64,000 bases of DNA. Origin: Vulcanisaeta souniana JCM 11219. Its GTDB lineage: Archaea > Thermoproteota > Thermoprotei > Thermoproteales > Thermocladiaceae. The translations under genes and the position numbers were made by a program. The stretch is from positions 186,001-250,000 of the forward strand of contig NZ_AP026830.1 of NCBI RefSeq assembly GCF_026000775.1, in the 5' to 3' direction. Of this stretch, positions 38,143-43,474 are shown piece after piece (position 1 is the first letter of the stretch; each line of letters starts with the position of its first letter). Below the pieces are notes generated by a model. That model had not been told where the DNA came from, made no database searches, and worked only from the letters and a program-made list of their open reading frames with translations.

Positions 38143-39093
38143 TCAAAGGCCTAGGCTGGTCCTCTCCCTCATACTCTCGATAAGCCAGATACCCCTCCTC
38201 TCAGCCTCCTCGACCGCTCCCGGCATTGCCCTTATGCAGTAAATGACCTTGATTACCCTGCCAGGGAATTTATCCGGGAACAGTCTCAAAGCCTCACTAA
38301 CCCTCTCATCAATCCTCGCAATCAACCTAGGACCAACTCTCGTCTTAGCCTCGCCGACTATCGTCAATTGCCCATTGGTACCATAAACATCAAACTCAAA
38401 CCTAGAGTCAAGGACAATCCTATCAGTCCTAATATCAACACCCCTCCCCCTAAGCAAGTGGGTAATGACATCATTGGCCTCCTCCTCGATAGAGGCCGTT
38501 AGGTTATCCAAAGTCCTCCTAATGGCACCAACATCCCTCCTAAGCAACCTAACCTCCCTCCAAAGCTTATTATTCTCCTGCCATAGTTTCTCGATATTCT
38601 CATTAATCCTCCTATTCTCCTCCCATAACTTATTCACATCGATCCTAAGGGCTTCCTGGTTTTCCCTTAGTTTTTCCTGTCCTTCCCTAAGCGACCTCAC
38701 CTCTTCCCATAACTTCTCCTGCCCCTCACGTAGGGCCTTAACCTCCTGCCATAGTCTGTTGTTTTCTTGCCATAGTTTTTCTATGTTTTCATTGATTTTC
38801 TTGTTCTCCTCCCATAGTTTGTTTACGTCGGCTCTGAGGGCGTTTTGACCCTCCTGCAATGCCTTAATGGCCTCCCACATTTTCCTATTCTCCTCCCATA
38901 GTTTATTTTGACCATCCCAAAGCCTCTCCTGACCCTCCACAAGCCTCTGAACAGTCCTAGTCAAATCATTAACGGCACTCACCAACTGCCTTAGTGATGA
39001 TTGAATGTCAACAATACCAAGTAGACCCATCACGGCCAGCCTAAACTCCTCATCCTCCCTCAACAAACGCAAAAACTCATCACGAAAAGACAT
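38143..39093 (-). CDS. Repetitive coiled-coil protein with C-terminal nuclease-like domain (DUF3782-like)
   Basis: Residues 40-205 are a long coiled coil built from near-identical units: KLWEENKKINENIEKLWQEN recurs as KLWEENRRINENIEKLWQEN, with ALREGQEKLWEEV and SLREGQEKLRENQ between. The C-terminal 100 residues look like a PD-(D/E)xK nuclease fold: FEFDVYGTNGQLTIVGEAKTRVGP carries D...GEAK, then KVIYCIRAMPGAVEEAERRGIWLI. Such coiled-coil proteins with this C-terminus are expanded in Thermoproteales. The DNA repeats suggest the length changes by slippage or recombination. Target unknown. Confidence 0.75.
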   Translation of the reverse strand: MSFRDEFLRLLREDEEFRLAVMGLLGIVDIQSSLRQLVSAVNDLTRTVQRLVEGQERLWDGQNKLWEENRKMWEAIKALQEGQNALRADVNKLWEENKKINENIEKLWQENNRLWQEVKALREGQEKLWEEVRSLREGQEKLRENQEALRIDVNKLWEENRRINENIEKLWQENNKLWREVRLLRRDVGAIRRTLDNLTASIEEEANDVITHLLRGRGVDIRTDRIVLDSRFEFDVYGTNGQLTIVGEAKTRVGPRLIARIDERVSEALRLFPDKFPGRVIKVIYCIRAMPGAVEEAERRGIWLIESMRERTSLGL

Positions 39094-40420: not shown

Positions 40421-41617
40421 ATGTACCTTAGCAAGCATGAAGAGGCTGTACTTAGCGGCGATTATGGAGACGCCGCTGCAAGGGCAATGCAGGTCATTGT
40501 TAGGGTTGGCGACGTACTGAGGGCTGATAGGCTCCTCGAGATAGAGACAGCGCATGTGGCCGGCGTGTCCTATTTAACAATAGGTGATCCGGGACTTGAG
40601 TACCTAGAGGATTTGGCGGAATCTGGGGCTAGGTTTCGTACATTCACGACGGTGAATCCCGTGGGCATGGATATACTCAATAATTGGGGAATTGATAAGG
40701 AGTTCATAGATAGGCAATGGAGGATAATTAATGCACTAAGGAAATTGGGCGCCAGCCTATGGCTCACGTGCACCCCATACGAGAATCTACGCATTAGGCC
40801 GAGGACGTACCATGCATGGGCCGAGTCCAATGCAGTGGCCTACATAAATGCTGTACATGATGCCTGGACAGAGAAGTTGCCGGGCCCCTTCGTAGTCTTA
40901 TCCGCATTGGTTAATAGAGTACCTAGGTACGGACTTTACACCCTAAGTGGTAGAACGCCGACACATATGGTTAGGCTGGAAGGTGACCCATTGATCAGTG
41001 ACCCATTGATCGCGGGGTTACTTGGCAGGAAAGTCGCTGAATTAGTTGGGGATGGGAAACCATACCTAATAGCCAGGTTTAGTGGTAATGCCGTGATCAA
41101 GCAATTACTCGCCAGTTACGCTACATACTCACCCCATGCCTTTATGGTACTTCATGGAATAACACCGAATAGTGATAAGTACATGTCTATGATGGACAAG
41201 CCTGAGACAATAGATGTAAGTATTAAGGAGATGAGGAGGGACAACGTAGAGGGGGGTAATTATGATGTTGATGCTGTGTTTCTCGGTTGCCCTCATTACG
41301 GTATTGAGGAAGTAAACGCAGTTATAAATTACGTAAGAAGCAAGGGAGGCAGGAGGGCAAGTAAGCCGGTGTATATAGCCACGACGCCTTTCGTACTTAG
41401 CCAATTAAGTAGTGAAACGATAAATATGCTTAAGGAGCATAATGTATACTTGGTGTTAAGTACGTGCCCTGTCGTATCACCATTCCTTAGAAGTGTTGGT
41501 GTTAGTACCGTGGCCACGGAGTCCGTGAAGCAAATGTACTACTTACCTAAGATGGTTGGCATTAAGTACGTGAGTTGCAATGGCGTTGAGTGCCTAGATA
41601 TTGCATTTAATGATTAG
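40421..41617 (+). CDS. Aconitase X large subunit, likely phosphomevalonate dehydratase
   Basis: AcnX large subunits dehydrate mevalonate-5-phosphate in the archaeal mevalonate pathway, or hydroxyproline in some bacteria. MYLSKHEEAVLSGDYGDAAARAMQVIVRVGDV and the HVAGVSYLTIGDPGLEYLEDLAE block are hallmarks; later Cys-bearing blocks (FLGCPHYGIEEV, LSTCPVVSPFLR, YVSCNGVECLD) supply Fe-S and active-site residues. Length 398 matches. The small swivel subunit that normally pairs with it is not in the window, so a two-subunit enzyme would need a distant gene. Mevalonate-pathway use is inferred from the archaeal context. Confidence 0.85.
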   Translation: MYLSKHEEAVLSGDYGDAAARAMQVIVRVGDVLRADRLLEIETAHVAGVSYLTIGDPGLEYLEDLAESGARFRTFTTVNPVGMDILNNWGIDKEFIDRQWRIINALRKLGASLWLTCTPYENLRIRPRTYHAWAESNAVAYINAVHDAWTEKLPGPFVVLSALVNRVPRYGLYTLSGRTPTHMVRLEGDPLISDPLIAGLLGRKVAELVGDGKPYLIARFSGNAVIKQLLASYATYSPHAFMVLHGITPNSDKYMSMMDKPETIDVSIKEMRRDNVEGGNYDVDAVFLGCPHYGIEEVNAVINYVRSKGGRRASKPVYIATTPFVLSQLSSETINMLKEHNVYLVLSTCPVVSPFLRSVGVSTVATESVKQMYYLPKMVGIKYVSCNGVECLDIAFND

Positions 41618-41628
41618 GGTGAATTCCC

Positions 41629-42066
41629 ATGAAGTACGTATCTTTTGATATAGATGGCGTGCTTGTAAATTCTGAGGATAGACTAAGTATGTGCATTAAA
41701 CCTAGTAATGAGGTTGATTGGGATTGCTTCCTGGACTGTAGAAAGTTATTCATGGATAAACCAAAGCAAAGAATAATAGAGTTCCTTAGGTTATTAAGGA
41801 ACAGGGGCTTCGGCATAGTAATTGTCACAGGAAGGAGGGAATACATGAGAGAATGCACCATGAATCAACTGAGGGGTTTTGGCGTAATTGGATTTGATGG
41901 ATTATTCATGAGACCTGATGACAATATAGAGCCGGATTCCATGTATAAGTCATGGATGATCCGAAATCTATTGAGGAGGTATGACATACTCGTGCACTTT
42001 GATGATAATGCAAGCACTGTAGCGACCCTGGTAAGTAATGGCATTGATGCCGTGGTGCTCTCATGA
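41629..42066 (+). CDS. HAD hydrolase, polynucleotide-kinase-phosphatase-like
   Basis: A compact 145-residue HAD protein without a large cap: motif I VSFDIDGVLVNSEDRL, motif II IVIVTGRREYMRECTMNQL, then FMRPDDNIEPDSMYKSWMIRNLL and motif IV LVHFDDNAS. The RPDDN-to-YKSWMI segment and HFDDN ending resemble the phosphatase domain of T4 polynucleotide kinase and related enzymes. Substrate is not established; alternatively a nucleotide phosphatase. Starts 11 bases after AcnX and ends 10 bases before the CbiA/CobQ-like gene, so the three are an operon. Confidence 0.75.
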   Translation: MKYVSFDIDGVLVNSEDRLSMCIKPSNEVDWDCFLDCRKLFMDKPKQRIIEFLRLLRNRGFGIVIVTGRREYMRECTMNQLRGFGVIGFDGLFMRPDDNIEPDSMYKSWMIRNLLRRYDILVHFDDNASTVATLVSNGIDAVVLS

Positions 42067-42076
42067 GGGATCAATA

Positions 42077-43474
42077 ATGACCAGGATAGGGGTCCTAAAC
42101 GTAAGGGGTGCAATGCCGCATTATGAACAATTACCATTCAATGTTTACGTAGACAAGCCAGGGATCATCAGGAAGCTTGATGCATTGATATTGCCTCCAG
42201 GTACCCTAGTGGAGTCCCAGGTACTGACACGCTATGATTGGATTAAGAGGGAGGTTTGGGATTTCGCTGAAAATGGCGGTGTGATTATTGGCGTTTGTTC
42301 AGGTGCTCAATTACTATCAAGGGCCGTAAACCTAAACGTTAAGGGACTACCTGGGTACGCTGAAGGACTTGGTATTCTGGATATTACCTTTGAGCCATTG
42401 ATTGTTACGGGACCCGTAAAGGTCAGGATAACTAATGAGACATGGATAACAAGGGATCTCCTAAATACCGAGTTACATGGCTGGCAAGCCCATACATATG
42501 GCAAGGCAAACGTGGAAACAAGCAATACCTGGGTAGTGGGGGTATCCCTGGTATCGAGGTATAACTATAGAAATGCGAAGATCGAGATTCCCACATTAAT
42601 GGTCTCACGGAGATATAGGGTATTCGGTACCATGGTGCATGGTTTGCTGGGTTCGGGATCACCGCTTACAAGGAATTTATTTCACGAGATCGGGATCACC
42701 GATAAAGGAGAAATCAAGAACTACTACAGAGTTATTAATACCAATGGCTGGAAAAGGAAGAGAGATGCGCATGTTAATCCTAGGATCATTACCATCACAT
42801 CAACGATGACTGGCGAGGGGAAGACACTAATAACGAGCGCATTGGCATACTGTCTATCAAGGACTGGTCATTACGTAGGTGTTGCGAAACTCGGTGGTGA
42901 TATTAGGGACCTACATCCGGGGCTCTATATTCTTGGTAAACCGTTTAAGCCCTGGATGAGCATAAGAATGAGGTGGGGGAGCAGGGCATTGGGTTGGTTT
43001 GATTGGCAAAGAACGCTAGGGAAAGCTGTGGAAATCGGGCTGGACACCCTGTTGGTTGAGGGTGTAATGGGCCTATTAACAGGATCCTCCAGAAGACCTA
43101 AGCGTGGCTTCTCATCAACCCTGGACTTCATAAGACAGGTTAATACAGACGTGGTATTGATCGCCTCTGCTCACTATGATGGAGTGGAGGGCGCATTACT
43201 TAGATTAAGAACCAATATTGATTTATTGAATAAAATCAGTAAAGGACCTGGGGTTGTGGTGCTCAATAATGCGTATCATGGAATCCATGAAGATAGGGCA
43301 TTGAGACAGTTTAAAACGGCTATTAATAAACTAGGTATTTCATTGTTTGTGGTTGATTCATTGATGATTTCATCAAAACCGGAGGAACTAATAGACCTGG
43401 AGGACTATAGGGATTCCGCAATTAAGGTATCGGGTAATCTATGTGATGCCTTTATCAATGTATTGAGTAAATAA
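42077..43474 (+). CDS. CbiA/CobQ-like protein with glutamine amidotransferase domain at N-terminus
   Basis: The N-terminal half is a GATase1-type domain: IIGVCSGAQLLS holds the nucleophile Cys near residue 74 and TMVHGLLGSGSP holds the His near 197. The C-terminal half is a CbiA/dethiobiotin-synthetase P-loop domain: ITSTMTGEGKTLITSALAYCL near 237, VEGVMGLLTG (the CbiA/CobB signature EGVMGL), DVVLIASAHYDGVEG. Normal CobQ and CobB have the opposite order, P-loop first. ATG at 42077 (465 residues) is chosen for its spacing after GAGGGATCA. It may amidate a cobyrinate-like or other substrate; no cobamide genes are adjacent. Confidence 0.75.
   Translation: MTRIGVLNVRGAMPHYEQLPFNVYVDKPGIIRKLDALILPPGTLVESQVLTRYDWIKREVWDFAENGGVIIGVCSGAQLLSRAVNLNVKGLPGYAEGLGILDITFEPLIVTGPVKVRITNETWITRDLLNTELHGWQAHTYGKANVETSNTWVVGVSLVSRYNYRNAKIEIPTLMVSRRYRVFGTMVHGLLGSGSPLTRNLFHEIGITDKGEIKNYYRVINTNGWKRKRDAHVNPRIITITSTMTGEGKTLITSALAYCLSRTGHYVGVAKLGGDIRDLHPGLYILGKPFKPWMSIRMRWGSRALGWFDWQRTLGKAVEIGLDTLLVEGVMGLLTGSSRRPKRGFSSTLDFIRQVNTDVVLIASAHYDGVEGALLRLRTNIDLLNKISKGPGVVVLNNAYHGIHEDRALRQFKTAINKLGISLFVVDSLMISSKPEELIDLEDYRDSAIKVSGNLCDAFINVLSK

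Follow-up and report, generated by a model that had tools for sequence, protein, structure and literature searches.

REV, a CbiA/CobQ-type amidotransferase encoded in the 64-kb stretch of Vulcanisaeta DNA analysed here (“the window”), has its glutaminase domain first and its P-loop synthetase domain second, the opposite of the order found in CobB and CobQ, but the standard one for its own archaeal family. Judged by sequence, REV is a mosaic of a CobQ-like glutaminase and a CobB-like synthetase, and we consider it likely that it is a glutamine- and ATP-dependent amidotransferase acting on the a and c acetates of cobyrinate, i.e., that it performs the CbiA step. A first-pass annotation of this DNA, which noticed the reversed order and took the neighboring genes to mean that the substrate might not be a corrinoid, was half right: CobB and CobQ do have the opposite order, but the context of the family points to corrinoids.

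The reading frame of REV is intact and real, and lies 10 bp downstream of a HAD gene, itself 3′ of AcnX (Table 1). The start is the ATG at 42077, as had been chosen at first pass, because the homologues begin at the same “M..IGVL”; a longer alternative starting at 42038 was rejected on the same grounds. Full-length copies, 56–87% identical, are found in nine other Vulcanisaeta genomes, and fragments in a tenth. In the Vulcanisaeta distributa JCM 11216 draft (L156, L027), the glutaminase-first gene and several neighbors are broken by stops; sequencing errors are likelier than pseudogenes, because many genes are affected.

Table 1. Features of REV and of the two genes upstream, in window coordinates.
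Feature	Position	Strand	Remarks
AcnX large subunit	40421..41617	+	Only full AcnX of the genome
Small HAD-family phosphatase, 145 aa	41629..42066	+	Pfam HAD_PNKP, E = 7.4e-12
REV, glutaminase-first CbiA/CobQ-type amidotransferase	42077..43474	+	465 aa
N-terminal class I glutaminase domain, residues 1–215	42077..42721	+	Pfam GATase_3, Foldseek; CobQ glutaminase closest
Cys74 codon, nucleophile in GVCSG	42296..42298	+	Invariant in 48 homologues; corresponds to GatD C94 (PMC5871853)
His188 codon (VHG), HG dyad like GatD H189-G190	42638..42640	+	Invariant in 48 homologues (PMC5871853)
C-terminal P-loop amidoligase domain, residues 235–465	42779..43471	+	Pfam CbiA; CobB synthetase closest; dethiobiotin synthetase fold
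Walker A G248-K249-T250 (TGEGKT)	42818..42826	+	Invariant in 48 homologues
K271-x-G-G-D275-x-R277-D278, where CobB has K-x-G-P-D-[YF]-I-D	42887..42910	+	Family motif
E328-G-V-M-G-L-L-T-G336, counterpart of CobB EGVMGL(F/Y)DG	43058..43084	+	E328-G329 invariant

Both domains are recognized by Pfam: GATase_3 matches residues 32–193 (E = 5.9e-10, above cut-off), and CbiA matches residues 238–330 (E = 1.6e-5), the latter falling just short of its cut-off (25.3 bits, 25.4 needed), which is marginal alone. Despite this score there is little doubt about the two-domain make-up, given the homologue profile, the invariant residues, and the predicted structure. The residues C74, H188, K249, T250, K271, D275, R277, D278, E328, G329, and M331 are invariant in the 48 aligned homologues. 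The AlphaFold2 model of REV has a mean pLDDT of 92.9 and a pTM of 0.92, and a Foldseek search with it returns class I glutaminases (HisH, PdxT, GatD) as well as dethiobiotin synthetase folds. The first half has the G-x-C-x-G nucleophile elbow and His-Gly dyad of the CobB/CobQ/GatD-type glutaminases, and the second the Walker A and dethiobiotin-synthetase fold of the CbiA/BioD-type amidoligases. In GatD, the catalytic residues are likewise a Cys/His dyad in which the histidine is followed by glycine (PMC5871853). The initial assignment of the cysteine in GVCSGAQ and the histidine in VHGLLG as glutaminase residues agrees with the invariance of C74 and H188, and the idea that either the P-loop or the Cys motif arose by chance was rejected, since HMM matches, invariant residues, and a confident fold support both domains.

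The order of the two domains, a glutaminase followed by a CbiA-type P-loop, follows from the same Pfam matches, conserved residues, and predicted fold, and the contrast drawn at first pass with canonical CobB and CobQ stands. Of the ORFs fetched, 93 belong to the family and have the glutaminase first, and the 57 canonical archaeal ORFs (CobB/CobQ/CfbB/DsrN) are without exception P-loop-first, both counts being of distinct sequences, some of which come from the same species group. The synthase domain has been described as N-terminal in CobB and CobQ (PMC5871853). That archaeal CobQ might already be glutaminase-first is ruled out by the P-loop-first order of canonical CobQ, and that the Cys domain might fail to align to GATase domains by its GATase_3 match. 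Proteins of the same order, for which the first-pass annotation proposed a scan and a check of whether they sit near AcnX, do form a widespread archaeal family, but in the AcnX loci fetched from 20 relatives outside Vulcanisaeta no such gene adjoins AcnX.

Reversed order is thus not peculiar to REV: proteins with the glutaminase in front turned up, in a genome scan and in a named scan, in Vulcanisaeta, Bathyarchaeota, Methanobacteriaceae, Methanococci, and a small number of other archaea, and the family is already modelled as NCBIfam NF004921/PRK06278. This model aligns end to end, residues 3–454 of REV to model positions 2–448 (E = 1.7e-70), with a score of 238 bits, which is under the curated equivalog cut-off of 354. 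REV is a divergent branch of the PRK06278 clade, outside the equivalog as curated. It shares with its relatives both domains, their reversed order, the full-length alignment, and a single clade per domain tree (support 100/100 for the glutaminase and 95 for the P-loop, in unrooted trees of three ingroup clades whose only outgroups have long branches). It differs from them in scoring below the cut-off, in having no C-terminal tail of the kind seen in many other members, and in lying outside a corrin operon, next to AcnX and HAD. A literature search for the glutaminase-first family, its domain order, or the name PRK06278 returned no papers, nor was there reported biochemistry for any member in the literature searched.

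The glutaminase-first protein is also a mosaic, which seems to be a new point. By profile comparison, the glutaminase domain of REV is closest to CobQ (E = 1.8e-16, compared with 9.8e-7 for CobB), while the P-loop domain is closest to CobB (E = 4.3e-29, compared with 6.3e-16 for CobQ). BLAST gives the same picture, with CobQ the best relative of 67/70 glutaminase domains and CobB that of all 70 P-loop domains; here “closest to” is a statement of similarity only, because the domain trees could not be rooted. The mosaic points to a possible origin of the reversed order: in a cobQ-cobB tandem fusion, the inner piece would consist of the CobQ glutaminase followed by the CobB synthetase, and loss of the outer domains would leave a protein such as REV. 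A simple circular swap of CobB is not favoured, as the two domains resemble different relatives.

The sequence motifs also set REV apart from the canonical enzymes. The KxGPD(Y/F)IDPxxH of CobB is replaced in the REV family by KxG(G/P)DxRDxxPxLY. In REV itself, KLGGDIRDL stands in place of the canonical K-x-G-P-D-[YF]-I-D-P, so that K, G, D, and D are kept, with R277 for isoleucine and G274 for proline; the stretch K271-x-G-G-D275-x-R277-D278 is a putative substrate/Mg site. The CobB/CbiA model NF002204 matches only the P-loop domain (36.6 bits, cut-off 254), the CobQ/CbiP model NF001989 only the glutaminase domain (46.5 bits, cut-off 273), and the model for CfbB, the Ni-sirohydrochlorin a,c-diamide synthase (NF033195), gives 12.1 bits against a cut-off of 560. 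REV shares a CobB-type P-loop synthetase with CobB/CbiA, CfbB, and DsrN, and the same glutaminase and ATP amidoligase chemistry is expected of it, but its order is opposite, its substrate motif changed, and its glutaminase more CobQ-like. No linkage to dsr/sulfate genes of the DsrN kind was recognised near REV at the loci examined. CobQ/CbiP has the most similar glutaminase; in comparison with it, REV has the opposite order, a CobB-like synthetase, and no K-x-Q-N motif. In MurT-GatD, which amidates lipid II, glutaminase and synthetase are separate subunits, unlike the single two-domain protein seen here, and MurT is a Mur ligase rather than a P-loop synthetase of the CbiA type. The GatD glutaminase fold with its Cys/His-Gly dyad is common to both systems (PMC5871853).

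Bathyarchaeota provide a corrin context. Cbi genes adjoin the glutaminase-first gene in 30 of 33 Bathyarchaeota-type loci, a set grouped partly by gene order and including a few MAGs whose titles say no more than Crenarchaeota, Nitrososphaerota, archaeon, or Methanomethylicota. The operon has CysG, HemB, HemL, HemC, CobA, and HemD on one side of the gene and HemA, CbiX-C, CbiD, CbiE, CbiT, and CbiG on the other. In 15 genomes of group f11, which we take as Bathyarchaeota, the glutaminase-first protein is the sole CobB/CobQ-type protein, and CbiB is present in the 13 tested. Neither CobQ/CbiP nor canonical CobB was detected by GATase_3 in these 15 genomes or in five further loci (L076, L078, L079, L081, L082), which have the corrin-ring operon and CbiB. 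Bathyarchaeota thus appear to lack CobQ, so that the glutaminase-first protein is the only enzyme known there that could make the later ring amidations, and its standing there as sole enzyme of its kind, with CobQ missing, seems to be new as well. Either all six amides come from the glutaminase-first enzyme, or they come from an enzyme that is yet to be found. We put forward the former tentatively, as a reading less likely than not: the Bathyarchaeota enzyme may carry out the a and c as well as the b, d, e, and g amidations, the work of CbiA plus CbiP, with the Vulcanisaeta and methanogen proteins having kept only a and c.

Most methanogen genomes with a glutaminase-first protein additionally encode a canonical protein of CobQ size and a single canonical CobB; in 3/3 tested, this CobB scores above the cut-off for CfbB. 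CbiG or CobQ is close to the glutaminase-first gene in four methanogen loci.

In the source genome, CbiG, CbiE, CbiX-CbiC, CbiH, CbiD, CbiT, CbiL, and CbiF lie in one cluster (≈637.6–644.3 kb), in which no CbiA is found. CobQ (above cut-off) is encoded at ≈976 kb, and there is one canonical CobB, at 2343.6 kb (G000:C1:2343590). The latter falls in a clade (100/100) with homologues that adjoin a sulfite reductase subunit (dsrA) and DsrC, and on the basis of gene context and tree it is probably DsrN-like, serving siroheme amidation. DsrN is a CbiA homologue that amidates siroheme, and archaeal DsrN forms a clade of its own (PMC10504309). At ≈2337.6–2345.0 kb (L133:3635-10952), an AprA-like FAD flavoprotein, ATP sulfurylase, a DUF6955 protein, a tetrapyrrole methylase, and the canonical CobB stand in a row, probably forming a cluster for sulfate reduction that includes a siroheme-amidating pair of its own.

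REV is thus the leftover CbiA candidate, because the corrin cluster is without CbiA, CobQ is separate, and the sole canonical CobB lies with sulfate genes. A second hint of this role lies in complementary occurrence: in Vulcanisaeta genomes, REV is accompanied by no more than one canonical CobB, while REV is missing from six genomes, drawn from two sister genera, that each carry a pair of canonical CobBs. In the sister genus g2, the second canonical CobB lies within a run resembling aromatic-amino-acid (shikimate) biosynthesis genes, as judged by eye from the translations (L140:8247-9581). In another sister genus (g3), REV occurs in three genomes with CbiC and CbiD (the copy in G016 being cut by a contig end), and the two draft genomes without strong CbiC are also without REV, although one of them (G022) has a partial CbiD.

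In the reaction we propose, the N-terminal domain would hydrolyse glutamine through Cys74 and His188, and the ammonia would pass to the C-terminal P-loop domain, which would use ATP to activate a side-chain carboxylate and then amidate it. The substrate would be cobyrinate, at its a and c acetate side chains, and in Vulcanisaeta REV would fill the CbiA slot, the one canonical CobB being tied to sulfite/sulfate reduction. For archaea in which the canonical CobB is occupied with F430 (CfbB) or, probably, with siroheme (DsrN-like), REV offers a concrete candidate for the CbiA step. Against the cobyrinate reading count the sub-cut-off score, the altered motif, the lack of an adjoining corrin gene, and two Vulcanisaeta genomes (G004 and G011), each 99% complete, that keep REV while true CbiC and CbiD are missing, G011 having only a weak partial CbiC match. 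De novo corrin synthesis cannot be the only use of REV, because these two genomes retain it. Both keep CobQ, CbiB, and canonical CobB, an apparent loss of corrin-ring synthesis with the late pathway retained, which suggests salvage of incompletely amidated corrinoids.

These two genomes would also suit a protein that amidates another tetrapyrrole, e.g., a siroheme or sirohydrochlorin derivative, with the canonical CobB of Vulcanisaeta doing the corrin step; DsrN and CfbB do use the same chemistry on siroheme and Ni-sirohydrochlorin (PMC10504309, PMC7242693). We regard this as unlikely, however, since the sulfate genes and the dsr-linked clade belong to the canonical CobB and not to REV, the Bathyarchaeota proteins lie in corrin operons, and methanogens have CfbB for the Ni-sirohydrochlorin step. 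Less probable by far than the CbiA role, and the most improbable of the readings considered, is a function as CobQ (b, d, e, and g amidations) or a mixed role: the similarity of the glutaminase to that of CobQ, by profile and BLAST alike, and the complete lack of CobQ in Bathyarchaeota speak for it, but Vulcanisaeta has a normal CobQ, as do most of the methanogen genomes examined, and the synthetase domain, which binds the substrate, is CobB-like in every case compared and without K-x-Q-N.

The remaining alternative, raised at first pass, is a non-tetrapyrrole substrate linked to AcnX and HAD, perhaps an acid of the isoprenoid pathway. As had been described, the genes for AcnX and the HAD phosphatase directly precede REV in the same orientation, no cobamide gene was recognised near REV in the window, and no corrin gene adjoins the Vulcanisaeta copy. 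The order AcnX-HAD-REV is kept across the Vulcanisaeta genomes examined, with gaps of 10–12 bp in the window, and this idea too would accommodate the two genomes without corrin-ring genes. In these archaea AcnX is nevertheless the one mevalonate-pathway dehydratase, and it is nearly universal: it was matched in 20/20 relatives searched outside the genus (19 above cut-off), and at their AcnX loci neither HAD nor REV lies within ≈1.5 kb. Elsewhere REV is unlinked to AcnX, in Bathyarchaeota being linked to corrin genes instead, and the residues at its catalytic and motif positions are shared by the family as a whole. We therefore consider an AcnX-linked substrate very unlikely and set AcnX aside as evidence of a functional partner, it being a single-copy housekeeping gene whose linkage is confined to the genus. 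The trio is a Vulcanisaeta arrangement that gives little functional guidance, because the linkage is absent from the AcnX loci fetched outside Vulcanisaeta; the argument from neighborhood for a non-corrinoid substrate fails on this point, on the corrin operons of the relatives, and on the corrin pathway of the source genome itself. Domain order and neighborhood alone mislead in the case of REV, and the CbiA step remains our preferred assignment.

The AcnX upstream of REV is the probable large subunit of mevalonate-5-phosphate dehydratase, its closest solved relative being 7cnr; the small subunit has its own gene 1.8 Mb away (G000:C1:2013848-2014072), as would fit this enzyme, and in G014 the two genes are neighbors. 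The HAD phosphatase resembles the phosphatase domain of PNKP and, among the loci fetched, occurs only in Vulcanisaeta. Further upstream in the window, on the minus strand (38143–39093), a 316-residue protein with only weak coiled-coil matches in Pfam has a long coiled coil built from LWEEN-type heptad repeats; the domain after it looks nuclease-like by eye.
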